Assembly: GCF_016595495.1 (NCBI RefSeq)
Contig: NZ_JAENIM010000037.1
Location: 1 to 64,000 of the forward strand
Length of the DNA: 64,000 bases
Direction: 5' to 3'
Origin: Persicirhabdus sediminis
Lineage (GTDB): Bacteria > Verrucomicrobiota > Verrucomicrobiia > Verrucomicrobiales > Akkermansiaceae
Positions 11,581-28,502 of this stretch are shown one piece after another (the first letter of the stretch is position 1; each line of letters starts with the position of its first letter). The notes beneath the pieces were generated by a model, which searched no databases, was not told where the DNA came from, and worked only from the letters and a program-made list of their open reading frames with translations. Made by a program: the position numbers and the translations under genes.

Positions 11581-13137
11581 CTAGCGCCAAATTTGCGCTC
11601 TCTGCTGCTTAGTCACTTCCTCAAACTTCTTAAACCCGTCGTGGCTAGGTCCACCCCAAACACGATCAGCCATGACCGCCAACGGCATCTGGTAGAACTT
11701 ATTAAACCAGTCGTCTTCATTTTCCTCAGCACCATCAGCCCACAGGCACATCTTGTAGCCTAAGACCTGCTCGTGTTTCAGCGGCTTCCAGTTATCATAG
11801 AGCCATTCGTAGCGCACGTATCCGTAGTCGCCCGGCTTGCCCTCACCTTTACCAGGGGTCACATAAAGACCTTCTTTTCCTGACTCTGGCGTCAAGATCA
11901 CCTGATAGCCGGCATCTAAAATCGCCTTCTGACGTGGACGATTCCATACATTGATCACAATATCATCAGCTGGATGAATGCTCGTCTCGTTGCGTTTGGT
12001 TTTGTTCGGGCTGAAATTCCACCAGTTCCATATTTGTGTCGTTTTGCCGTGAGACTTAACCAGCTCATTCACCTCATTGATCCAATCCACAAAAATATCT
12101 CCCGGATGGCTAAAGCCCATCTCCATCGCCGCAGCTACCATTTCAGGCGCTGCATTCTTCTGCTCGTCGTACTGCCATTCATCACCACCGATGTGAAAAT
12201 ATTGACTGTCAAATAGCGGAATCCACTCGTTGAGCAGATTATTGATCCACTCACGGTTTTTCCTTTTGGATACGTCAATCACCCAGGCCTGATTCTTTTC
12301 GTTAGCTTCATCGCCCTGCCACTTCGCCTGACGCATACTCGCTGATTTAAAACCTAACTCAGGCGCGTAATTCGTAATCCAAGTAGCGTGCGCTGGCAGA
12401 TCAATCTCTGGCACAATCTCAATGTGATACTTAGCCGCATAGTCCTGCAGGTGGCGGATGTCTTTTTTTGAATAAGCCTGCTCACTTGCCAGCCCTGGGT
12501 AAACCTCACTCTTCAGACGGAATCCATTCCACTCCGTGAAATGCAAGTGCAAGACATTCATCTTCAAGCGCGCCATCTGACGCATCAACTTCTCCAAATA
12601 CTCGATCTCAAAATACCGGCGACCGCAGTCGACCATCATGGCCCGCTGCTTCACCTTTGGCTGGTCTACCACCATGCCTTTAGCCACTGCATCACCAGTG
12701 CCAGCTAGCTGGCTCAATGTCTGCAGTCCATAAAAGATACCTGTGTTTGTTGAAGCCGATAGCTTGATCTGATCACCCACTTCCAGCTGGTAGGCTTGTT
12801 CACCTAGCTTCTTGTTAGCGCCATCCAGCTCTATCACCAAATGCGCCGCCTGCTTATCCGTTAGCTTGATATCAGCCTTACTAATCTCAGCCCACTCAGA
12901 TTTGAACACCGCAAATTCATTAGCCAATAGCTCAAGGTCGCTAGCCTCCACAAAAACACCTAGCTGAGTAGGCCACGCCAACTCACCACCAGTCAGAGAC
13001 CACGGCTGCGTGGCTGGCACCGTCACCGGGCTCTGCTCTGCCCGCATCTCCGCACCTGAGAAACTAACCCAAACACCCACAGCTGCAGCCATTAGGCCAG
13101 AGCTATAACAACGACTCGTCTTCTTCAAATCATTCAT
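11581..13137 (-). CDS. Beta-N-acetylhexosaminidase, GH20 family (copy 1)
   Basis: The 518-residue secreted enzyme removes terminal GlcNAc or GalNAc from glycans. It has an N-terminal signal segment (SSGLMAAAVGVWVSFSGA), the GH20b-type domain ('EGYQLEV..'-like; here GEQAYQLEVGDQIKL with FYGLQTLSQL), then the catalytic barrel with HIGGDEW, in which Asp319-Glu320 form the substrate-assisted catalytic pair. It is a close paralogue of the gene at 19107-20663: same length, same catalytic position and long identical blocks in the barrel. Three sulfatases lie between the copies. Confidence 0.95.
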   Translation of the reverse strand: MNDLKKTSRCYSSGLMAAAVGVWVSFSGAEMRAEQSPVTVPATQPWSLTGGELAWPTQLGVFVEASDLELLANEFAVFKSEWAEISKADIKLTDKQAAHLVIELDGANKKLGEQAYQLEVGDQIKLSASTNTGIFYGLQTLSQLAGTGDAVAKGMVVDQPKVKQRAMMVDCGRRYFEIEYLEKLMRQMARLKMNVLHLHFTEWNGFRLKSEVYPGLASEQAYSKKDIRHLQDYAAKYHIEIVPEIDLPAHATWITNYAPELGFKSASMRQAKWQGDEANEKNQAWVIDVSKRKNREWINNLLNEWIPLFDSQYFHIGGDEWQYDEQKNAAPEMVAAAMEMGFSHPGDIFVDWINEVNELVKSHGKTTQIWNWWNFSPNKTKRNETSIHPADDIVINVWNRPRQKAILDAGYQVILTPESGKEGLYVTPGKGEGKPGDYGYVRYEWLYDNWKPLKHEQVLGYKMCLWADGAEENEDDWFNKFYQMPLAVMADRVWGGPSHDGFKKFEEVTKQQRAQIWR

Positions 13138-15752: not shown

Positions 15753-17273
15753 TTATTTCACGCCAATATACTCGCCAGTAAGCGGATTGTATCGCCCTCT
15801 AGCAGCATGCAAATCCTCAGGCCAAGGAATGCCATTGGGCAAATGATTTGGCGAACCAAAGAGAGGCGGAATATTATCTTTATTCCATTCTTCCCACTGT
15901 TTGCGCAGCTGCTGCATGCGCTCAGGCTCCTGCTGGCTCAGGTCAGTACTTTCGTACGGGTCATTATTTAAATTGAAGAGTTGTGGTGGATCGTCGCTAA
16001 AGGTGAAGAAATCCCTCGTTGCATGCACTAACTTCCAGCCACCTTTCTGGATCGCCCAGTTATCGCCCACGCGCCAGTAGATTGCATCGTGAGGCGCGCC
16101 TTTTTTCTTACCTTGGAGAAATGGAGTTAGATTAACACCATCGATAGCCTCTGGGATAGGCTGGCCAGCAGCAGCTAGAATAGTTGGCAGTACATCTATC
16201 TGCACCACAGGCTCACTGAAAACTTGCCCAGCTGGAATCTGTTTTGGCCAGCTGACGATGTAGGGCACGCGAATGCCACCTTCATAAATTTGTCCTTTCT
16301 GCCCACCAAATGGCACATTCCACGAACCGTTATCTTCAGGTTTGCCGCCGTTGTCTGAAATCGCAAACACGATCGTATTCTCACGCAAACCTAACTCTTC
16401 TAGCCGATCGAGAAATCGACCAATCTCAGTATCCATCTGCCACAGTTCTGCTAGCCCCTTGATGCGCTTCTCTCTTGGGGTATTAAACTGTCTATGGCCA
16501 TCTGCATTTTTCGGCACCTCATAGCCATTTTTGTCGAAATACTCACGGATGCGTTCTTTGTAGTCACCAGTAGCCTCGTTAGGCCCGTGCATCGCCGTAT
16601 AGGACATGTACATGAAAAATGGCTGTTCAGCCTCGTGCTGACGGTTCACAAAATCAATCGCCTTGTCGGTATAAACCTCACTCAGATACATTGACTTGTC
16701 ATTAACCGTCACCGGTTCATCCCAAAACACAATGCCCTTTTCTACCTGAAATGAACGCAAGAAGTTTTGGTTCCCCGGCTCCACCAACCCCCAGTATTCG
16801 TCAAACCCACGCTTGTGAGGAAGCTGCTCAGCAGAACTGCCAAGGTGCCACTTACCAAAAGCAAAAGTACGATACCCCGCCTCCTTCATGTAGTCAGCCA
16901 TCGTTGATTCGCTCAAGCGCAGCCCATCCAGAGTATTTTCATCTTGGCGGCGCGCGCCTTTGTGTTGCTCGTAGCCAGTACGCGCCTGATATTTACCAGT
17001 CACCAGCGATGCGCGAGATGGCCCACACATCGGCGAGGTCACGTAGCCATTCTCAAATCGTACCCCACTAGCTGCCAAAGCATCCATGCTAGGCGTCTGG
17101 GTATACACGCCTGCCTGATTCGCTCCAAGGTCGGCATACCCCATATCATCGATGTAGATGACAACTATGTTGGGTTTACTAACATCCTCCGCATTCACCG
17201 ACTCAGCTGCAGCTATTGAGCTGGCTGATAGAAGAATACCTAGAGTTTTGATAACTTTCGTTTTGAAATTCAT
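15753..17273 (-). CDS. Cysteine-type arylsulfatase-like sulfatase
   Basis: This 506-residue exported enzyme has the S1 sulfatase layout. After the signal peptide comes 'PNIVVIYIDDMGYADLG' with the two metal-binding aspartates, then the formylglycine motif MCGPSRASL (Cys83) and GKWHLG. The middle has 'FAISDNGGKPEDNG', and the C-terminus is the usual small sulfatase subdomain. It resembles the arylsulfatase A and N-acetylgalactosamine-6-sulfatase group. It faces the third sulfatase across a 286-base divergent promoter region. Confidence 0.93.
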   Translation of the reverse strand: MNFKTKVIKTLGILLSASSIAAAESVNAEDVSKPNIVVIYIDDMGYADLGANQAGVYTQTPSMDALAASGVRFENGYVTSPMCGPSRASLVTGKYQARTGYEQHKGARRQDENTLDGLRLSESTMADYMKEAGYRTFAFGKWHLGSSAEQLPHKRGFDEYWGLVEPGNQNFLRSFQVEKGIVFWDEPVTVNDKSMYLSEVYTDKAIDFVNRQHEAEQPFFMYMSYTAMHGPNEATGDYKERIREYFDKNGYEVPKNADGHRQFNTPREKRIKGLAELWQMDTEIGRFLDRLEELGLRENTIVFAISDNGGKPEDNGSWNVPFGGQKGQIYEGGIRVPYIVSWPKQIPAGQVFSEPVVQIDVLPTILAAAGQPIPEAIDGVNLTPFLQGKKKGAPHDAIYWRVGDNWAIQKGGWKLVHATRDFFTFSDDPPQLFNLNNDPYESTDLSQQEPERMQQLRKQWEEWNKDNIPPLFGSPNHLPNGIPWPEDLHAARGRYNPLTGEYIGVK

Positions 17274-17559: not shown

Positions 17560-18984
17560 ATGAAAATGATCAAACACCTAATTTTAGGCGTCAGCCTAAG
17601 CCTAACAAGCCTGCTTTCCGCCGCAGAAAAACCCAACATACTCGTCATCCTGCTAGATGACATGTGCTACAATGCACTTGGCTACACTGGCAGTGAAGTC
17701 ATCAAGACTCCTAACTTGGATAGCATTTGCAAGCAGGGAGTATTTTTCCCACAGGGCTACGTCACTCACGGCGTCTGCGCGCCATCTCGCGCTGGTCTCA
17801 TGACTGGCCGCTACCAAGCTCGCTTTGGTTATGAAACACTCAGCGGCGGCATTGCCCACGCCACAGAGATCGAGCACGGCATGGATACTAACGAAATCAC
17901 CATCGCCCAGTTGCTCAAGCCAGCTGGCTACAAATCAGCCGCCATCGGCAAATGGCACTTAGGTGAAGTGAAAAGATTCCTCCCTCTACAGCGCGGTTTC
18001 GACTATAACATGAAAGCTGTTGGCTACCCTACATTCAAAGACGCCAAAAAGAATTACCTGTTAATTAATGAAGAAAAGCAGCCGTGGCCAGAAGACGCCT
18101 ACCGCACAGACCTTCACACGGATTACGCTATCAAGTGGCTGAAAGAAACCGCGCCCAAGAATCCATTCTTCCTCTACTATTCACTCAATGCCATGCATAC
18201 GCCTATCGTCGCTCCGATAGGCAAGGAAAACTACGGCATCCATCCCTACGTTGGCATGATGGAAAATGTTGACCAAAACGTTGGTCGCCTACTCAGCACG
18301 CTCGACGAGTTAGGTGAAAGAGAAAATACTATCATCTTCTTCCTCAATGATAACGGAGGCATCACGCTACAAAAAGGAATCAAAGCAAAAGACCTGCCAA
18401 AAATTCAAGCCGCTATCAATAACGGTCCATACAAAGCTAACAAAGCAAGCCTCGAAGAAGGTGGCGTGCGCGTGCCATTTGCCATCCACTGGCCAGGAAA
18501 AATCGGCAGCAAAGAAGACTTCGCTGGCCCTATCATCAGCCTAGACATCTTCCCAACTATCGCGGCAGCCGCCGGTGTAGCTCTCCCAGCAGACCGTGAA
18601 ATCGACGGCATCAACCTGCTGCCGTACCTAACTGGCAAAAAAGCACCACTTACCGATCGTCAATTTCTCTGGCGCTGGGGCCGCGGTCATGCCGTTCGCC
18701 AAGGTGACTGGAAACTTGTTTGGCCTGTAGACAAAAGTGTTTATGCAGCAGCGCTCAAACGTGAAGGCATCACACCAATCAAATCCAACAGACCAAACCC
18801 AGACCGCAGGTTTTACGCCGCTCCTCAGCTATACAATCTAGCAGACGACCCATCAGAAACCACTGATCTAGCTGCAAAATTCCCAGAGGTGCTAGAGCGC
18901 ATGAAACAAGAGTCGGTTAAATTCGACGCCATCGCTAAACCATATACTGAGGGCGAAATGAGTACTTGGCCAAAGAAACCGTAA
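17560..18984 (+). CDS. Cysteine-type sulfatase
   Basis: The 474-residue exported S1-type sulfatase has a signal peptide ending near 'LLSAAE'. It is followed by 'KPNILVILLDDMCYNALG', the formylglycine motif VCAPSRAGL (Cys73) and GKWHLGE. 'FFLNDNGG' supplies later metal ligands. It is the only plus-strand gene in the island and has its own strong terminator. Like the other two, it needs a formylglycine-generating enzyme or anSME, which must lie elsewhere in the genome. Confidence 0.93.
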   Translation: MKMIKHLILGVSLSLTSLLSAAEKPNILVILLDDMCYNALGYTGSEVIKTPNLDSICKQGVFFPQGYVTHGVCAPSRAGLMTGRYQARFGYETLSGGIAHATEIEHGMDTNEITIAQLLKPAGYKSAAIGKWHLGEVKRFLPLQRGFDYNMKAVGYPTFKDAKKNYLLINEEKQPWPEDAYRTDLHTDYAIKWLKETAPKNPFFLYYSLNAMHTPIVAPIGKENYGIHPYVGMMENVDQNVGRLLSTLDELGERENTIIFFLNDNGGITLQKGIKAKDLPKIQAAINNGPYKANKASLEEGGVRVPFAIHWPGKIGSKEDFAGPIISLDIFPTIAAAAGVALPADREIDGINLLPYLTGKKAPLTDRQFLWRWGRGHAVRQGDWKLVWPVDKSVYAAALKREGITPIKSNRPNPDRRFYAAPQLYNLADDPSETTDLAAKFPEVLERMKQESVKFDAIAKPYTEGEMSTWPKKP

Positions 18985-19106: not shown

Positions 19107-20663
19107 TTATCTCCAAAGCTGTGCTCTCACAGCTTCTGTGTTTTTCTCGAAGGACTTGAATGAATCCACCTTAGCGCCGCCCCACATTCTATCAGCCATG
19201 ACAGATAGAGGCAGTTGATAGTATTGCTCAAACCACTCATCAGCTTGATGCTCAGCCTTGTTGCACCACAGGCACACTTTGTAACCAAGCACCTGATCAG
19301 TAAGAATTGGCTTCCAATTTTCATACAAATAATCAGGACGCATGTAGCCATAATCGCCAGGTTTTCCATCGCCCGCCATCGGCGTTACGTAGAGTGAGTC
19401 TTTGCCTTCCTCTGGGGTAAGAATCACAGGATAACCTTCTGCTAGAATTGCATTCTGCCGCGGGCGGTTCCACACATTCACCACAATATCTTTGGCTGGA
19501 TGAATGCTAGTTTCATTGCGTTTCTTTTTGTTCGGGCTGAAGTTCCACCAGTTCCAAATCTGTGTCGTTTTGCCGTGTGACTTTACCAGCTCGTTGACTT
19601 CATTGATCCAGTGAACAAAAATATCCCCCGGCATCTCGTAGCCCATAGCCTTCGCTGCGGCCACCATCTCTGGCGCTTGATTCTTCTCCGCATCATACTG
19701 CCACTCGTCACCACCAATGTGGAAATATTGACTGTCGAATAGCGGAATCCACTCGTTGAGCAGCTTGTTGATCCACTCACGGTTTTCCTCTTTAGAAACA
19801 TCAATCACCCACGCGAGGTCTTTCTTGTTAGCTTCCTCACCCTGCCATTTTGCTTGGCGCATACTTGGGGATTTGAAGCCTAACTCAGGCGCATAATTAG
19901 TGATCCAGGTAGCGTGTGCCGGCAGATCAATTTCAGGTACGATCTCGATGTGATACTTAGCCGCGTAATCTTGCAGGTGGCGGATGTCTTTTTTCGAATA
20001 CGCCTGCTCGCTAGCTAGCCCCGGATAAACATCACTCTCTAAGCGAAATCCATTCCACTCAGTGAAATGCAAATGCAGCACGTTCATCTTCAAACGAGCC
20101 ATCTGACGCATCAGCTTCTCCAAAAACTCCACCTCAAAATAATGACGACCACAGTCTACCATGAAGGCGCGCTGCTTCACCTGAGGTTGATCTATCACTT
20201 TGCCTTTCATCACGCCATCAGCATTTCCAGCCAGCTGGCTCAATGTCTGCAAACCGTAAAAAATACCTGTGTTTGTTGATGCTGTTAGCTTGATCTGATC
20301 AGCCACTTCCAGCTGGTAGCCCTCAGCCCCCAGCTCATTGTTAGCTGCATCTAGCTGGATCAACAAATGTGCTGATTTAGCATCACCCTGCTTCACCGCA
20401 ATCTTACTCACTTCGGACCACTCAGCTTTGAATATCTCCAACTCACCAGCTAGCTCCGCCTGCTGGCCACCTGCTACAAAAATACCTAACTCACTAGGCC
20501 ACGCCAACACACCCTCTGCCTGCTGCCACTCCTGCGTCGCTGGTAAAGTTACTTGCTCATCACCAGCTTGCGCTACAGCCCCAGAAAAACTAACCCATAC
20601 CCCCACAGCTGCTGCCATCAGGCCCGAGCTATAATAACGACTCCTCTGCATAAAACCATTCAT
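19107..20663 (-). CDS. Beta-N-acetylhexosaminidase, GH20 family (copy 2)
   Basis: The ATG at 20661-20663 (MNGFMQRSRYYSSG) is preferred over one 13 codons upstream because it gives 518 residues, the same length as copy 1, and places the catalytic HIGGDEW pair at Asp319-Glu320 exactly as in copy 1. The signal segment is almost identical to copy 1. The barrel region shows long identical blocks, while the linker after the signal and the C-terminal third are more divergent. The role is cleavage of terminal N-acetylhexosamines from glycans, probably after desulfation by the neighbouring enzymes. Confidence 0.95.
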   Translation of the reverse strand: MNGFMQRSRYYSSGLMAAAVGVWVSFSGAVAQAGDEQVTLPATQEWQQAEGVLAWPSELGIFVAGGQQAELAGELEIFKAEWSEVSKIAVKQGDAKSAHLLIQLDAANNELGAEGYQLEVADQIKLTASTNTGIFYGLQTLSQLAGNADGVMKGKVIDQPQVKQRAFMVDCGRHYFEVEFLEKLMRQMARLKMNVLHLHFTEWNGFRLESDVYPGLASEQAYSKKDIRHLQDYAAKYHIEIVPEIDLPAHATWITNYAPELGFKSPSMRQAKWQGEEANKKDLAWVIDVSKEENREWINKLLNEWIPLFDSQYFHIGGDEWQYDAEKNQAPEMVAAAKAMGYEMPGDIFVHWINEVNELVKSHGKTTQIWNWWNFSPNKKKRNETSIHPAKDIVVNVWNRPRQNAILAEGYPVILTPEEGKDSLYVTPMAGDGKPGDYGYMRPDYLYENWKPILTDQVLGYKVCLWCNKAEHQADEWFEQYYQLPLSVMADRMWGGAKVDSFKSFEKNTEAVRAQLWR

Positions 20664-20787
20664 CAACCAGATACTACGCATCCACATGCATTCATCTAGC
20701 ATGAAGAAAGACCCGGTTTTTAACCTAAACGATTAAATCTAAACATTCTCAAACTCCTCTATCAAGGAGCGAAAACACAGCTCTCTA

Positions 20788-23700
20788 TCAATCCACCAGC
20801 TGCTTCGCCTTGCGGATCGCTGCTTTTGCTCGGTCAGTTTGCATCACAATGATGCCATTTTCATCCACGACGAGGTGCGGAAGCCGAGCCGCTTTGAACA
20901 CCGCTTGAATTGGCTGATCTGCTGCCTCTAGAGCAAAGCGAGTTTTGAAATCGGGGAATTGATTCGCTAACACCTCATCCACCTCCCGCTGCGGCCACGT
21001 CGTATGAATGATGAAAATATCCAGTTCCGGATTCTCTTTCACTAACTTCTCATGCAAAGGCAGTGTATTGCTAGACCACATCAGTGACCTGTCCATTGCC
21101 TGAAATAAGAATACCTTCACCTTGCCCTTAGCGTTCACATCCACTGGCTCGGCGTGATACCATTTCTCAATCTTCAGCTCCGGCATCGGCTGGCCAATCA
21201 AATCCACAGTGTTATACCTAGCGTCATGCCACTGGTAACTTGTTGGCTCAATGATTTGAATATTCTGGTCGCCAGTCTTAACCCGAGTTTTAGACCACTT
21301 GGTTCTGTCGGTGGGATCCCATTTCACGGTCAAGTCCAGCCAACCCGAAACCAAACCATCGATTTTGAATGAGCCATCTTTCAGACTAACATCTGTAAGC
21401 GCCGAACCATGTGAGTAAGCTAGCGATACAGGCTGCCTGTATCCATGAGCTTGTACGGTTTCCCCTTTCACGGGTTTACCGTGACGATCCAACAGAACTC
21501 CACTGACATGCTGATCAGCCTTAGGCAAAACAATATTTTCAACCCTTACTGATTCGCCAGCTATCACAACTATAGCATTGCTGTCACTTTCACCATAACC
21601 GCTATGAGCTACGGAGATGTTCAGCTCCACTCCAACTGGTGCCAGATTCTCAAAATGATAATGTCCATTCTTGTCAGTTAGTTGCTCTCGCCGCCACTCT
21701 TGTGGTAAACCTCCCCAGAGCATAACATTAGCGCCCATTATAGGAGCCCCCTCCTCATCTATAACTATCCCTGTAATCGCGGTGGATGGATCATTTTTCA
21801 CCACGATCTTAGCTTCAGTTTCGCCTAACTTCCATTCCTGAAAAGTTGTGGAGTATAGCTCACCTTTTCTCACGAAGATCCTAACTAATTCGGTCTCAAG
21901 ATTAGCCTCCTTACTGAAATCTTCCGAAGTGAATTCAAAAGCAAAACGACCTTCAGCGTCACTTAATTGATCCATTGGACCAAATTGTCTGTGCTGACTT
22001 TGGCTTCTAATAATGACCTCAGCCCCTTCTACAGCTAAGCCATTTACATCGACGACTTGTCCTTTGATCGAAGAAATAACTTCCTGGTTTAGAGCTGAAA
22101 ATTCTATATCAACAGTCTTAGTCTCCCCTGCTCCGATTTCTAAAGAATAATATTCATTATTGTCAGCATAGCCCTCAGGGCGTAGCTGCTGATATTGAAC
22201 TGTGCATTTTCCAGCTGGAACTCGGAGTTCATATCCACCAGCAAGTGATTCCCTTGTCTCACTATCAATCGGGCTCACCTTAACATAAGCCACCTTAGCT
22301 AAAGAAATAGCTGCAGCTTTGTTCTCACCTACACTCACTTTTTCAACGACCTTATCCCGAGGAGCTATAAATTCGTCAACTAAGGCAGGGGGGACATTCA
22401 GCAAAATTTCATAGGTTCCAGCTGGAAGCTGTTTAAAAGAATAGCGGCCCGTTTTATCAGTGAGCACGATGTCTCGATATAATTGGTCCCTGTTAAAAGC
22501 GTAAACCGCAACACCTTCGGCTTCACTGCCGTCGGGAAGAGAAACCTGACCGTCTAGATTACCTGCAGGCTTTAACTTAAAAGTACTAACACCATCAAGA
22601 GGAACGTAAGCCGAGGTAAAGAAAAGCGCTGTCTTGTTTGCAACGTTTGCGTAGGATTCCCAATCGTGGAGCAGATACGCCCTTGTAAACTCAGGAATGT
22701 TAGCAATGGTACAAAAACCTTGCTCATCAGTAACAGCTGAAAAAAGATCCTCTGCTAGCTCTCTTGGGATTCCTACGCCACCATAACCGAACCTACTCAT
22801 TGGATGGTCACTAGGCAGCTGACGTAATAGCCTGCCAACCCTAACGTTCATTCCAGCAGCAGGAGTTCCATCAGCTTGGAAATACTGAGCTCTAGCTGAT
22901 CTCACTTTTTCTAATCTCAAGGTAAACGTCTTCTCACCAGGTACGAGTTTTTTACTGTCATAATCACTAGCGATAAAAATTCCTTTGCCTGCTGCATAAG
23001 CTACAAAATCTACAGCATCACGACCAGACATGATGTCTCTTTCTTCTTTAGGGTAACTCGAGCTCGCATCAAATCGATACTCGCCAGACGCATCCGTCTT
23101 GCCCTTTGACAAGACATCATACGAGTTTGAATAGGCGGTAAACTTCCTCACATACACCGTAGCGTTAGAAGCTGGCTTACCAGCTGGATCGAGCACGGTG
23201 ACGGTGACTATGTTATCTCCAGCTGGATCTAACTTCACGCCAGCTTGTGGTGCGGCAGGAGCCTTTTGCTGAGCCTCTTTTTCAAATTCAACTTCGAGTT
23301 CAATGGTTTCGCCAGGTTGCAACTCAATCTCGAACTCTTCTTTATTTGGCTGATATCCAACAGGTGCAGCACTCCCATTATAAAACTGAACCGTTTGCTT
23401 CCCCGTTCTAACTTTATGCCTAAACATTGCCATCATTCTAGGCTCATCCAATTCAATAGGCTTCTTTGTCAAAGCATCAAGCATCTTCCACTGGATAAAA
23501 GCCGCAGCCTCCATTTTGATAGGTTCCGTAGTGACTACCCCTCCTTCGAGAACAGACACTACTAGTTCCCCCTGCTTAGCAATATTTTGCTCTGACAGAC
23601 TAGAGTAATTAAGTTCATATAAAGGTTTAGGTAAATGCCTAATAACAACACCATACGGTTTATCGGAATGAGGTAGCTGAGTTAGTTCAAACTTGCCCTC

Positions 23701-25701
23701 GTTGTCAGTGAAAGTTTCAGCATAGTAGTAATTATACATGCGACCATAGGCCCCTACTAGTACTCCATGAGCACCATTTCCATTCACGTCTAGCACCTGA
23801 CCACGGATTGAAGACGCCGTCGCGAGGGTAAACACCTTTGATTCTCCGCCTAATAGATGGTTCTCCGTCAAAATTCCACTATTCTTACCGGTGAGGTTAG
23901 CGTATTCTTTGCCGTCATGCATTAAATAGACTCCTCCTGCATCTGGAATATAGGAAACATCGCACCATCCATCCAAATCTGTGACTCCAGTGAAGACCTG
24001 TGCTCCTAGCTCTCGGCCTAGGTCTACTGTACTAAGTGTTGGTCCAGGATCACCTAGTAAAACTGGCTTACTCAGTGCATAACTTTCAAAAAATACCGAC
24101 AGTCCAACAGCTGGACTCTGATCAGGCTTCAAAAACCTTACCTTGGCGGAGGATGTCTTTTCTAACTTTATCTGCGCATTCCTCAATTCGCTGTCAATTT
24201 GAGAGCCAACACGTAACCAGGGATCAAAGTACACCCCTGACTTCTCCCCCTTTGCATGCAGGTGCAAATGGTTCAGCCCCTCATGTTCATGAAACAGCTC
24301 AGTCACATCAAAACGCATTATACCCAGAGCATCCGTCATTCCTGAATCAACGATGACATGTTCACCCCGCTCAGCTGAATACATCTGCACATACACCGTA
24401 GCGTTAGGCGCTGGCTGGCCAGCTGGATCGAGCACCTTGACGGTGACGATGTTCTCACCTATCAACTCTTCATTCTCGCTGGCTACTTCCTCTTGGATGA
24501 CTTCCTCTTGGATGACTTCCTCTTGGATGACTTCCTCTTGGATGACTTCTTGTTGGAGGGTTTCCTCAGGGGCTTTGGTGAAGCCTGTGGAGGTGAAGAT
24601 GCCGATGCAGGTGATGACAAATAGCGCTGAGAATAAACGTAATCCTTTGCGGTAGTTAGCGATGCCTAGCAAGCGATTTTTTAGATCAGCTGAACTTTCC
24701 AATACACTTACAGCGCCAACCATCGTTGGACTTTGGTGCATATTTTCTAGCAAGTTCAATAAGGCGTGACCGTAGCTGTCGCGGTGGTTTTCGCCAATTT
24801 TACTCAGCACCCAGCTATCGCAGGCGGCCTCAGCTTCGATGCGGATGCGCTTGCATGCTAGCCAGACCAGTGGGTTAAACCAATGCAGCACCTGCGCCAC
24901 TAACATCAGCGCATTGAACCATAGGTCGCGGCGTTTCACATGACCTAACTCGTGCAGTAAAATCATTTCTAGATCAGCGCGTTCCAGCTCGCCTAGCAGC
25001 TGGCGAGGAAATAAAATCGTTGGCCGAAATAATCCGGTCACCGCAGGTGAGCCAACTTGATAGCTCAGTACCACTCGTGGCAGACGAGACATAACCGCCA
25101 GCTGGCCAGCCTGATTCAAAGCATCTATCAGCTCATCCGATTCTACTCTACGACCAGACCGGATCACCAACTGAAGATGGGTGATATTTACTAACAACAT
25201 CACCGCAAATATAACGCAACCAGCAAGCCAAGCTCTCATCAGGTAGAGAGACCAGTCAATTTGGCTCACTTGATTTTCACTCAGTACTGGCTGCATTTCT
25301 GGCTGAGCAAACTCCTCCTGAATAGGCAAGACTGCCGACGGCGCCTCGGCTTCGCTGTACGAGAAGGACTCTGCATTTGGCTCAGCGGGTTCGACAAATT
25401 CCTGTGGCATTTCAGCTGGCGGACTCAGCTCAGCTAGCTGGTCCGTCGCAGCTGACTCAACTGACTCAACTGACTCATTTTGCTCAGCTGTCGCCACATC
25501 TCCCCTAGCAAACACAGTTTCCCACGATGTCTCAGCACTTGGCGGAGAAATTAAAAGCAACCTAACCACAACCAGCAAACTGAGCCCGTGGCGCCAGCTG
25601 GGAGCAATGCGTTTTCCTGCGATGAGCAAGAGTAGAAAAATGACCACAGCTAACACACTGGCTATCGCTGAGGCCTCGAGAACTTGTTCAAATAAGCCCA
25701 T
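20788..25701 (-). CDS. Giant M56 (BlaR1/MecR1-like) membrane receptor with carboxypeptidase-regulatory-like domains and redoxin-like tail
   Basis: The 1637-residue protein starts 2 bases after the blaI stop. Membrane helices lie near residues 10-28, 38-52, 158-178 and 356-374. The zinc protease motif HELGH is at about 250-254, followed by the conserved 'EAEAACDSWVLS'. This is the BlaR1-type M56 module that signals by proteolysis toward its partner repressor. The outer part is not a penicillin-binding sensor. After a QEEVI repeat (about 384-405) come many carboxypeptidase-regulatory-like beta-sandwich domains ('GQVLDVNG', 'GVVIDEEG', 'GVLLDRHG') and a C-terminal thioredoxin-like fold with a cis-proline segment (RLPHLVVDENG) but no CxxC. 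The ligand is unknown. Confidence 0.85.
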   Translation of the reverse strand: MGLFEQVLEASAIASVLAVVIFLLLLIAGKRIAPSWRHGLSLLVVVRLLLISPPSAETSWETVFARGDVATAEQNESVESVESAATDQLAELSPPAEMPQEFVEPAEPNAESFSYSEAEAPSAVLPIQEEFAQPEMQPVLSENQVSQIDWSLYLMRAWLAGCVIFAVMLLVNITHLQLVIRSGRRVESDELIDALNQAGQLAVMSRLPRVVLSYQVGSPAVTGLFRPTILFPRQLLGELERADLEMILLHELGHVKRRDLWFNALMLVAQVLHWFNPLVWLACKRIRIEAEAACDSWVLSKIGENHRDSYGHALLNLLENMHQSPTMVGAVSVLESSADLKNRLLGIANYRKGLRLFSALFVITCIGIFTSTGFTKAPEETLQQEVIQEEVIQEEVIQEEVIQEEVASENEELIGENIVTVKVLDPAGQPAPNATVYVQMYSAERGEHVIVDSGMTDALGIMRFDVTELFHEHEGLNHLHLHAKGEKSGVYFDPWLRVGSQIDSELRNAQIKLEKTSSAKVRFLKPDQSPAVGLSVFFESYALSKPVLLGDPGPTLSTVDLGRELGAQVFTGVTDLDGWCDVSYIPDAGGVYLMHDGKEYANLTGKNSGILTENHLLGGESKVFTLATASSIRGQVLDVNGNGAHGVLVGAYGRMYNYYYAETFTDNEGKFELTQLPHSDKPYGVVIRHLPKPLYELNYSSLSEQNIAKQGELVVSVLEGGVVTTEPIKMEAAAFIQWKMLDALTKKPIELDEPRMMAMFRHKVRTGKQTVQFYNGSAAPVGYQPNKEEFEIELQPGETIELEVEFEKEAQQKAPAAPQAGVKLDPAGDNIVTVTVLDPAGKPASNATVYVRKFTAYSNSYDVLSKGKTDASGEYRFDASSSYPKEERDIMSGRDAVDFVAYAAGKGIFIASDYDSKKLVPGEKTFTLRLEKVRSARAQYFQADGTPAAGMNVRVGRLLRQLPSDHPMSRFGYGGVGIPRELAEDLFSAVTDEQGFCTIANIPEFTRAYLLHDWESYANVANKTALFFTSAYVPLDGVSTFKLKPAGNLDGQVSLPDGSEAEGVAVYAFNRDQLYRDIVLTDKTGRYSFKQLPAGTYEILLNVPPALVDEFIAPRDKVVEKVSVGENKAAAISLAKVAYVKVSPIDSETRESLAGGYELRVPAGKCTVQYQQLRPEGYADNNEYYSLEIGAGETKTVDIEFSALNQEVISSIKGQVVDVNGLAVEGAEVIIRSQSQHRQFGPMDQLSDAEGRFAFEFTSEDFSKEANLETELVRIFVRKGELYSTTFQEWKLGETEAKIVVKNDPSTAITGIVIDEEGAPIMGANVMLWGGLPQEWRREQLTDKNGHYHFENLAPVGVELNISVAHSGYGESDSNAIVVIAGESVRVENIVLPKADQHVSGVLLDRHGKPVKGETVQAHGYRQPVSLAYSHGSALTDVSLKDGSFKIDGLVSGWLDLTVKWDPTDRTKWSKTRVKTGDQNIQIIEPTSYQWHDARYNTVDLIGQPMPELKIEKWYHAEPVDVNAKGKVKVFLFQAMDRSLMWSSNTLPLHEKLVKENPELDIFIIHTTWPQREVDEVLANQFPDFKTRFALEAADQPIQAVFKAARLPHLVVDENGIIVMQTDRAKAAIRKAKQLVD
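24475..24552. repeat. In-frame 15-bp coding repeat in the M56 receptor
   Basis: About four to five copies of GGATGACTTCCTCTT (plus-strand reading) encode the peptide repeat QEEVI just outside the last membrane helix of the receptor. The period is a multiple of three, so copy-number changes would lengthen the acidic stalk without frameshift. Confidence 0.85.
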
Positions 25702-25703
25702 GA

Positions 25704-26081
25704 TTACTTCTCCTCTTGTTTGGCTAGAAGTTCACGCAGCGCTTTAATTTCATCCTCATCCAGCTTGCGATTCGTCTGCAGGCTGTGAGCTAACAATGGC
25801 ATCAACGAGTTTCTGCAGATGCGCCCGAGAAACGAACTCGTTTCCTGTTGGGTCGCCTGCTCTTTCTCTATCAGCGGGGAGTAAAAATAACGATTGCCTT
25901 CCGTTTTGTAGCTCAGCACCCCTTTTTTCACCAGGCGACCTAGCATGGTTTTCACCGTTTGTGGTTTCCACGCCTCTTCTTTACTCACCGCGCTAACAAT
26001 CTGTTGCGCGCTCAGCGGGCTACTCGCCCACAGTACCTCCATCACCTTCCACTCGGATTCAGAAATCTTGCCATCACTCAT
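25704..26081 (-). CDS. blaI: BlaI/MecI-family repressor
   Basis: The start at MSDGKISESEWKVMEVLW gives 125 residues, normal for the family. An extension of 14 codons upstream would run through the operator. The winged-helix domain ('LSAQQIVSAVSKEEAWKPQTVKTMLGRLVKKGVLSY') binds DNA, and the C-terminal helices dimerise. In BlaI/MecI systems the partner M56 protein triggers repressor cleavage and derepression. Here the partner follows 2 bases downstream. A perfect palindrome lies just upstream of the start. The regulated targets beyond the pair itself are unknown, and no beta-lactamase is present. Confidence 0.93.
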   Translation of the reverse strand: MSDGKISESEWKVMEVLWASSPLSAQQIVSAVSKEEAWKPQTVKTMLGRLVKKGVLSYKTEGNRYFYSPLIEKEQATQQETSSFLGRICRNSLMPLLAHSLQTNRKLDEDEIKALRELLAKQEEK

Positions 26082-26087
26082 AATGAC

Positions 26088-26118
26088 TACATGTGTAATC
26101 AGATCGATTACACATGTA
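26088..26118. promoter_or_regulatory. BlaI operator palindrome
   Basis: TACATGTGTAATC (26088-26100) and GATTACACATGTA (26106-26118) form a perfect 13-bp inverted repeat with a 5-base spacer. The nearer edge is 6 bases upstream of the blaI start. Each arm carries TACA and TGTA elements, the core of BlaI/MecI operators. Its position between the upstream gene and blaI supports autoregulation of the blaI-receptor operon. Confidence 0.85.
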
Positions 26119-26150
26119 AACAACTTTCCCCAACAATCGTATTTTCACCT

Positions 26151-28502
26151 CTACTCAGCAGTGCTGAACAGGCGGTTTTTGACGTCTGGGAAGAGCTCGA
26201 ATAGAGCTGACTGATAGTCTTCTGGTTTGGCGAGTTTGATAGGTTCGCCTTGGTCGCTGAGCGATTTTAATACCATCTGCTGAGGGACTTCAGCTTCCCA
26301 CGGGCGAGCCCAAGTGAAGGTGGCTAACAAGTCACCGCGGCGCAATGCCATGCTCTCACCGCTACGGCCAGCGTAGGCGGTAGTCATGACTGCTGACACT
26401 TCACCATTTTCTTCTAGCAGCGACCTGCCCGCCATCAGCTGGCGCCACTCAGATGGATAACCTAACGCGTCTGCTAGTGACGGCATGACGTCGAGATGGC
26501 TGGCGGTGAGCTGGCTAGGTCCACGGCCCATAGAGGCGGGCCACTTGATGAGAATAGGTACGGCGGTTTGCTCTGGCTGGAGCGACGAGCAATGGAACCA
26601 GCTACCGTGTTCTTGAAATTCTTCGCCGTGGTCGCCGGTGATGATGATGATGCTGTCGTCGTAGCGACCTTCTTGCTTGAGAAAGTTAGTGAATTCCTCA
26701 ATCTGGTGGTCGACCCACGCGGCGGCATTGAGGTAGCGGTTACGCACCCGCTGGACAGCTTGTTCATTTGGCCTCACTGGGAACCTAACGGTGGTGTCGT
26801 ATTCTTTGTATGGTGGATCAAAATCGCGATGCCAGTAGTAATTGTAATGCGGCGAATCTAACCCGAGGAAATAAAACCCACCGCCAGCTGGACGCTCAGC
26901 GATGGATGATTGCATTTCTTCAAAGCACCACTGCTCGCGAGCTGGAATACCAATGCTAGAAAATTCATCAGCGCCGTCGACGTGGCGAAGGAAATCTACC
27001 AGCTGAGTGCCAGTGCCAAAGTTGAGCATGCCAAAATCTTTATAAGAGAGGTCACAAACGGCGCGCACTTCCATGTGGTAGCCAGAGTTTTTCAGCGCCT
27101 GCAACATGGGTGCGCCAAGGAATGTCTCACGGTCTTCGATAGATTCTAAAGTGGAGCGCCAGAAAACAGGCACTTGGCTGTGGAAAAAGCTGAACCAAGA
27201 TAGATGCGTGGCGTTAGATGCGGCCCACGTGCGCTCTAGCTGTTGGGCTTCATTTTGTTTGAACTGGCTAAGGAATGGTGTGGTTTTCTCATCAATGGCA
27301 TCAGCGCGCAAACTCTCCACCATGAGAATGATGATGTCTGGTTTCTTTTCTAGCTGGTGAGAAATGGCCTGTGGCTGCGGGGCGATAAACACAGGTGTCA
27401 GCTCGGTGAGTCCGTCGCGCGGGTTGACCAAGCTGAGGCCGAGGCCAAAAACTTCGCGCTCGGACTGCCAAGCCACCACATCTTTCCATAGCGCGCCTAC
27501 TCCCTGCTCGACGATGACAAATAACCAGCAAGTAAAGCCGATGACAAAGGCGCGGCCGAGTGACATTTTCATGCTGAACTTTTTCGAGATCAGCCATGCT
27601 GCTAGAACGAGCAGACCGGCACCACCAACGACAGCTAACATGGACAGATAGACCGTCAGGTTGCTCACTTCAATGCCTCCAGCTGCGAGCTCAACGGCGA
27701 GGTCAAAATTCCCTGAAGCGGTGAGTCCGTTAAGCAGCTCGATGAGCGAGCGCCCCCACATCATGCCTAGCAGCTGGTCGGCAATGACGAGAAATGGCAC
27801 CAGCCCAACAAATGCCCAAACGATCCAGCGCAGGTGGATGGGTGATGCGCGCAGCACCAGCTCCATGAGCACGTAGAAAAAACAAACGAATACTGCCTGG
27901 GTAAAACAACGCCCTAGCATGGCGCTAGCCACTTCGGTAGCGGTGCCCTGCAGCAGCCAGATAGAGAAAAAGTTATTGGTCAGCAAAGCTAACAAAAGGA
28001 GGGCAAAAAACATGCCATTCCAAGCGCGGCATTCGCGCAGCCAATCTTTGAAGTTAGTCCAGCTAGGCCAGCTGAGGTTTTGGCTACCTCGAGATTTTTT
28101 TCCCATCAATGCAGCAAGCACGGAGACGGCGACGAGACCAAACATGCTGAGCCAGAGAATCCCGCTAGAGGGGATTTTTTCTGCGTAACATAGCCAGATA
28201 TATGGTGCCCAGACGGCCATGAATCCGGCGATGATTTTCCAGCCAGCTGAGCTCGCGCCAGCTAGCCAGCTTGTAAAACGCATCCAGTAGCCACCGATGA
28301 TCATGCCGAGCACACAGAAGAGCGTGAGCGAAATCAGATTGTAGGCAAAATTCCCTGGCCCAAAGCGCAGCGGGATTTGATTAACGGTCCAGGCTTGGTG
28401 GTACGGCAGCGACATCGCGGCGGCGCCAAGCAGCCATGCCAGCGTGTGCAGTAGGTGGAATTGCCAGCTGCGATTCGTGCGGTTGTCTGCTTCAGTTTGC
28501 AT
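26151..28502 (-). CDS. YejM/PbgA-like membrane protein with sulfatase-fold domain
   Basis: The 783-residue protein has about six to eight membrane helices in the first 330 residues, then a periplasmic alkaline-phosphatase/sulfatase-fold domain. That domain begins 'KPDIIILMVESLRADA' and continues with 'AASNATHLSWFSFFHSQ', where a threonine sits at the usual nucleophile position, and 'IIIITGDHGEEFQEHG'. The layout matches YejM/PbgA and LTA-synthase-type proteins, not secreted sulfatases. YejM controls LPS synthesis in E. coli. Whether this one is catalytic, transferring a head group, or regulatory is open. Its ATG follows the T-run of the def terminator directly. Confidence 0.8.
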   Translation of the reverse strand: MQTEADNRTNRSWQFHLLHTLAWLLGAAAMSLPYHQAWTVNQIPLRFGPGNFAYNLISLTLFCVLGMIIGGYWMRFTSWLAGASSAGWKIIAGFMAVWAPYIWLCYAEKIPSSGILWLSMFGLVAVSVLAALMGKKSRGSQNLSWPSWTNFKDWLRECRAWNGMFFALLLLALLTNNFFSIWLLQGTATEVASAMLGRCFTQAVFVCFFYVLMELVLRASPIHLRWIVWAFVGLVPFLVIADQLLGMMWGRSLIELLNGLTASGNFDLAVELAAGGIEVSNLTVYLSMLAVVGGAGLLVLAAWLISKKFSMKMSLGRAFVIGFTCWLFVIVEQGVGALWKDVVAWQSEREVFGLGLSLVNPRDGLTELTPVFIAPQPQAISHQLEKKPDIIILMVESLRADAIDEKTTPFLSQFKQNEAQQLERTWAASNATHLSWFSFFHSQVPVFWRSTLESIEDRETFLGAPMLQALKNSGYHMEVRAVCDLSYKDFGMLNFGTGTQLVDFLRHVDGADEFSSIGIPAREQWCFEEMQSSIAERPAGGGFYFLGLDSPHYNYYWHRDFDPPYKEYDTTVRFPVRPNEQAVQRVRNRYLNAAAWVDHQIEEFTNFLKQEGRYDDSIIIITGDHGEEFQEHGSWFHCSSLQPEQTAVPILIKWPASMGRGPSQLTASHLDVMPSLADALGYPSEWRQLMAGRSLLEENGEVSAVMTTAYAGRSGESMALRRGDLLATFTWARPWEAEVPQQMVLKSLSDQGEPIKLAKPEDYQSALFELFPDVKNRLFSTAE

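Follow-up and report, generated by a model that had tools for sequence, protein, structure and literature searches.

A BlaR1-type M56 receptor of Verrucomicrobiales with a carboxypeptidase-regulatory-like tail and a cysteine-less redoxin as its likely binding head

Introduction

What might a BlaR1-type receptor sense when its outer part holds no detectable penicillin-binding domain? To our knowledge, hardly any role beyond beta-lactam sensing is known for BlaR1 and MecR1, and we found no literature pairing M56 with carboxypeptidase-regulatory-like domains and none pairing BlaR1 and BlaI with Verrucomicrobia. The question is raised by a receptor gene of Persicirhabdus sediminis, which lies within the 64,000-nucleotide stretch of DNA analysed here (hereafter the window). 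Its product joins a protease module to an outer part of about 1260 residues, made of at least seven carboxypeptidase-regulatory-like (CpdR) domains followed by a thioredoxin-like fold that lacks the CxxC motif.

Results

The receptor carries an intact M56 protease module

The receptor gene and its membrane-associated parts are as follows.
20788-25701, minus strand: M56 receptor, intact open reading frame of 1637 residues, starting 2 nt past the blaI stop
24667-25683, minus strand: M56 module, residues 7-345 (PF05569, E 1.1e-53; match to 8exs; hydropathy)
24940-24954, minus strand: HELGH zinc motif, residues 250-254, aligned with HEYAH of BlaR1
24571-24648, minus strand: last transmembrane-like stretch, residues 352-377 (hydropathy)
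24460-24570, minus strand: acidic linker of VIQEE repeats, residues 378-414 (sequence)

The first-pass annotation had proposed a BlaR1-type protease module with an intact HELGH, and both the profile match and the motif at residue 250 bear this out. The module also matches the solved Staphylococcus aureus BlaR1 structure 8exs (E 1.1e-07), and hydropathy places transmembrane-like stretches within it at residues 1-37, 38-58, 150-183 and 264-283. An M56 domain, an HExxH motif and membrane helices are thus found together, with a BlaI/MecI-type repressor (Penicillinase_R, E 4e-35) encoded alongside across a 2-nt gap, as in peptidase family M56 of the BlaR1 type. The HSFN stretch of S. aureus BlaR1 aligns with VSVL in the window receptor, which scores 157 bits against NCBIfam blaR1_generic, below that model's cut-off of 400.

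The tail is a CpdR chain ending in a redoxin without cysteines

Beyond the linker, the tail is divided as follows.
23266-24459, minus strand: tail unit 1, residues 415-812, CpdR-type, containing C580 (Pfam match, internal duplication)
22081-23220, minus strand: tail unit 2, residues 828-1207, tandem duplicate of unit 1, containing C997
21262-22080, minus strand: last three CpdR domains, residues 1208-1480 (PF13620 matches, AlphaFold2 model, carboxypeptidase D match)
20791-21219, minus strand: thioredoxin-like (TlpA/peroxiredoxin-type) domain without cysteines, residues 1495-1637
21070-21099, minus strand: former CxxC site, residues 1535-1544 (AMDRSLMWSS), with receptor-invariant R1538, L1540 and S1544
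23962-23964 and 22711-22713: signature cysteines C580 and C997, respectively

CarboxypepD_reg matches the tail in seven stretches (Pfam, E 1.8e-44), and in the AlphaFold2 model residues 1305-1395 superimpose on the transthyretin-like domain of human carboxypeptidase D (Z 12.3, 24% identity), so that both the sequence profile and the predicted fold agree with PF13620. A tandem duplication of about 390 residues is visible within the tail (415-812 against 828-1207, 29% identity, E 3e-46). For the N-terminal half of the tail, the HMM matches and this duplication carry the CpdR assignment, as the structure model there reaches a pLDDT of 52; Foldseek with that model, which at this pLDDT excludes nothing, returned mainly beta-sandwiches of pilins, macroglobulins and adhesins. 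The expectation of some 1100 residues of beta-sandwich domains describes the CpdR stretch (415-1480) well and falls short for the whole outer part. We also observed a signature, TDxxGxC...HxD..(F/Y)AQ, with one cysteine and one histidine, that is conserved in the first CpdR unit and common to the receptors (window, L029-L032) and several relatives without M56.

Taken alone, the last 158 residues matched no Pfam or NCBIfam model. An AlphaFold2 model of residues 1195-1637, built with four homologues, reached a pLDDT of 79.8, and in it residues 1498-1637 align with AhpE, Bcp, ResA and TlpA-type structures (Z about 12-13, rmsd 2.5-3.0). The sequence profile of the receptor-type domain matches the thioredoxin-like structure 3eyt (E 3.6e-4), and the domain is homologous to that of L034, a protein positive for Redoxin. 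Predicted fold and sequence kinship together place it in the thioredoxin/TlpA/peroxiredoxin superfamily. The domain contains no cysteine at all, and the CxxC that marks active thioredoxin/TlpA oxidoreductases was found in none of the six receptor-type tails; the earlier suggestion of a CxxC-less redoxin fold is thus well supported. The window protein has RLPHLVV, and two alignments place the candidate cis-proline at different positions.

No penicillin-binding sensor is detected

A Transpeptidase profile found no match in the window receptor at E≤1, a scan that includes the N-terminal tail half for which the structure model is not confident (pLDDT 52), and we discarded a transpeptidase in the tail on this ground. 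The same scan does find the domain in other M56 receptors of the order (E 1.3e-46 in L102). Transpeptidase-tailed receptors (for example L099-L102, L104, L106, L107) share the M56 module with the window protein and, unlike it, carry a penicillin-binding transpeptidase domain. BlaR1 and MecR1 (S. aureus BlaR1, PDB 8exp and 8exs) likewise have an M56 module with HExxH, an adjoining blaI-type repressor and an operator of the TACANNTGTA type, whereas the window receptor has no detected penicillin-binding sensor and bears its CpdR-redoxin tail instead. By the sequence features tested, the window protein is not a BlaR1 beta-lactam sensor. Because the transpeptidase goes undetected here while the same scan recovers it in sister receptors, the natural reading is that this receptor senses something other than beta-lactams, as the first-pass annotation had supposed. 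The ligands it had tentatively named, a glycan or envelope damage, stay conjectural; the sole local pointer to a glycan is the GH20 gene described below, which in other genomes does not stand beside the receptor.

A unique double operator precedes the blaI-receptor operon

The genes and sites around the receptor are these.
25704-26081, minus strand: blaI-type repressor (longest open reading frame to 26123; Penicillinase_R, E 4e-35)
26085-26121, no strand assigned: double BlaI/CopY-type operator of two RNYKACANNTGTARNY sites (shuffles, genome-wide scan, published consensus)
19107-20702, minus strand: GH20 beta-N-acetylhexosaminidase (PF00728, 9.4e-51), 85 nt downstream of the receptor
15753-17273 and 17560-18984: sulfatases

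We prefer the blaI ATG at 26081, since relatives start with MS..ISESEWKVMEV and the operator ends before that ATG, 3 nt ahead of it. Two TACANNTGTA sites form a perfect 13-bp inverted repeat, TACATGTGTAATC-N5-GATTACACATGTA, at 26088-26118. Both predicted sites fit RNYKACANNTGTARNY in full, which is the extended consensus proposed for CopR-CopY operators, the older 10-base motif alone not being sufficient for binding (PMC7253601); a KACANNTGTA operator thus stands ahead of the operon, as in the BlaI/MecI/CopY regulon. In 100 shuffles of the window, the observed number of operator matches was never reached. The full-consensus pair occurs once in the 4.17-Mb genome, with no other pair at zero mismatches. 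When two mismatches were allowed one further pair appeared, which is about the level of chance because a reversed control pattern also gave one. The operator pair being unique, the direct regulon visible by sequence is the blaI-receptor operon. Similar pairs lie just ahead of blaI in many relatives; here and in several of them the operators end a few bases before the blaI ATG, which suggests a very short or absent blaI leader.

On the minus strand between the receptor and the GH20 gene no terminator-like site was called, and the GH20 gene is a possible read-through target of the operon. As a conserved partner of the receptor it was discarded, as GH20 does not stand beside the receptor in the other genomes inspected; no other neighbouring gene is conserved there either. 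A search of 96 further family genomes for the window's GH20 gave nothing at E≤1e-60. The window holds two GH20 hexosaminidase genes, 11581-13137 and 19107-20702, both on the minus strand and 75% identical, and immediately upstream of the blaI operon lies the gene for a membrane protein with a sulfatase/LtaS-like domain (26151-28502, minus strand).

M56 receptors of the order carry diverse tails

Of the 142 genomes sampled from the order, 88 encode M56 proteins. Many of these genomes have several, and frames above 1000 residues are frequent. In a comparison set of 74 M56 proteins, chosen partly for length, the tails were CpdR-redoxin (5), CpdR (17), transpeptidase (12), secretin-like (7) or unassigned (33). 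The last four kinds being common in the order, we do not uphold the idea that a long CpdR tail is peculiar to the window protein. The M56-CpdR receptors of the order (for example L044, L045, L093, L094, L103) resemble the window protein in having a CpdR chain behind the M56 module and blaI next to them; unlike it, they show no detected C-terminal redoxin.

The window genome alone has three BlaI-M56 pairs, each differing from the others in its kind of tail. The second pair (contig C8, L004:5322-10199, minus strand) includes a receptor of 1625 residues; its tail gave no convincing Pfam match and by eye resembles repeated modules of the secretin/STN type. The third (contig C41, L003:1309-2292, minus strand) shares M56 and BlaI with the window pair, and its M56 protein of 327 residues has no sensor tail. 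Rv1845c/Rv1846c of Mycobacterium tuberculosis is such a tailless M56-BlaI pair.

On an M56 tree the tail types were clustered, at least 13 changes being needed, and these changes fit domain exchange. A long branch leads to the window M56; joining it in one clade with the remaining redoxin-bearing receptors was not rejected (AU p 0.119), so that this grouping is allowed.

The redoxin is dead in receptors and active-looking in M56-free relatives

Searching 289 genomes of the order, we found the receptor-type tail in the window genome and in G047, G058, G158, G243 and G084. In the first four of these relatives M56 and tail share one frame, and in G084, whose contig ends inside the tail, an M56 module is presumed; four of the relatives with such a tail are Akkermansiaceae or other Verrucomicrobia metagenome-assembled genomes. 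The copy in G058 (L032:5340-11156, plus strand) runs by eye into IS630-type transposase-like sequence where the contig ends, which looks like an insertion that hit the receptor gene. Elsewhere in the phylum, a sparse sample of 387 genomes besides the window genome gave no redoxin-bearing receptor at E 1e-6, and outside the order a longer CpdR-redoxin profile gave only matches to the CpdR region.

Ten relatives of the tail (L034-L042, L046) pair a CpdR chain with a C-terminal redoxin, both homologous to those of the window protein, and where the N-terminus is complete they look secreted by eye. Unlike the window protein they have no M56, and all ten retain CxxC (CxPC or similar, active-looking), including L042 from the window genome. 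Both cysteines are lost in all six receptor-type redoxins, which instead share R1538, L1540, S1544, H1566, W1569, E1592 and Q1621, a set that is not common, as a set, to the M56-free relatives. This contrast, between an active-looking redoxin in M56-free relatives and cysteine loss with an invariant set in receptors, is newly described here from sequence comparison.

We read conservation from amino-acid identity alone because synonymous changes were near saturation. For the M56, CpdR and redoxin parts, respectively, L030 is 69, 51 and 67% identical to L031, 62, 44 and 62% to L029, and 53, 32 and 54% to L032. Among these closer receptors, the redoxin is thus conserved about as well as M56 and better than the CpdR chain. 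The window protein is more distant (40, 34 and 35% to L030), and at this distance the redoxin is no better kept than the CpdR chain. One receptor of the redoxin-bearing M56 clade, L093, stops short of the redoxin, so that this domain can be absent and may be dispensable for signalling.

Discussion

The operator, the repressor gene, the protease module, the anatomy of the tail, the loss of the cysteines and the conservation of the dead domain can all be read from the sequence. Around them we propose, as the probable arrangement, an autoregulated BlaI-M56 signalling unit in which a dead redoxin is the binding head on a CpdR stalk. By analogy, its core would work as that of BlaR1-BlaI does (reviewed in PMC7593790). 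BlaI would bind the two adjacent TACANNTGTA operators before its own start codon and repress the blaI-receptor operon. If the topology follows BlaR1, the receptor would be anchored in the inner membrane, its zinc protease facing the cytoplasm and about 1260 residues lying outside. This outer part would share ancestry with the secreted CpdR-redoxin proteins, and its redoxin, having lost thiol chemistry, would have become a conserved binding head at the tip of the stalk. When a signal molecule or partner protein binds, the last transmembrane helix may pass this on to the protease, which would then cut BlaI, both steps being modelled on BlaR1, and so derepress the operon and possibly, by read-through, the GH20 gene.

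Receptor-specific cysteine loss, the invariant residue set and a redoxin conserved like the protease together make a sensing or partner-binding head the most likely role of the dead domain, and suggest a retired enzyme turned into a sensor. The most economical account of the tail is that a CpdR-redoxin module was joined to the M56 core and its redoxin then re-used for binding; the order, secreted enzyme first and receptor later, is inferred from catalytic state rather than from a rooted tree. The full history we put forward tentatively, at a little under an even chance: a BlaR1-type receptor acquired its redoxin from the secreted CpdR-redoxin family, and this redoxin then gave up its thiol chemistry and was reshaped into a pocket for a ligand or partner, leaving a BlaI-M56 pathway that reports a non-beta-lactam signal in Gram-negative Verrucomicrobiales.

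The CpdR chain could itself be the sensor, binding a polysaccharide or cell-surface structure, with the redoxin as a structural cap; the nearby sulfatases and GH20 enzyme would then mean that a sulfated amino-sugar glycan is sensed. CpdR/transthyretin-like folds are frequent in surface proteins, many M56 receptors of the order have CpdR chains and no redoxin, and L093 lacks it too. We nevertheless judge this unlikely: in the closer receptors conservation is lowest in the CpdR chain and among the highest in the redoxin, and in the genomes inspected neither GH20 nor sulfatase genes go with the receptor, the window's GH20 being found in none of the 96 other family genomes. Distinctly less probable is that the receptor senses the redox or disulfide state of the envelope, through a partner redoxin docked on the dead domain or through C580 and C997. 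Redoxin ancestry, the active-looking L042 in the same genome and the conserved Cys/His signature of the CpdR units all speak for such a role. Against it, every receptor-type redoxin has lost its redox cysteines, the CpdR cysteines would lie at the usual buried-aromatic position of the fold, and among the tail-search matches receptor and M56-free relative occur together only in the window genome.

That the redoxin is a functionless, decaying leftover of a fusion, with only the M56-BlaI part mattering, would account for the lost catalytic residues and for the absence of the whole domain from L093; that its identity matches the protease's in the closer receptors, and that other residues have become invariant in it, makes this very improbable. 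We give practically no credence to an assembly fusion of two genes, a concern raised in the first-pass annotation and ruled out by the same M56-CpdR-thioredoxin design in independent assemblies of four, probably five, other Verrucomicrobiales genomes.

The protease-repressor core in this order carries at least four kinds of outer part. The enzyme-to-receptor contrast with active-looking relatives names residues to test, and the short, unique operator offers a readout, so that what non-beta-lactam M56 receptors sense becomes directly testable.
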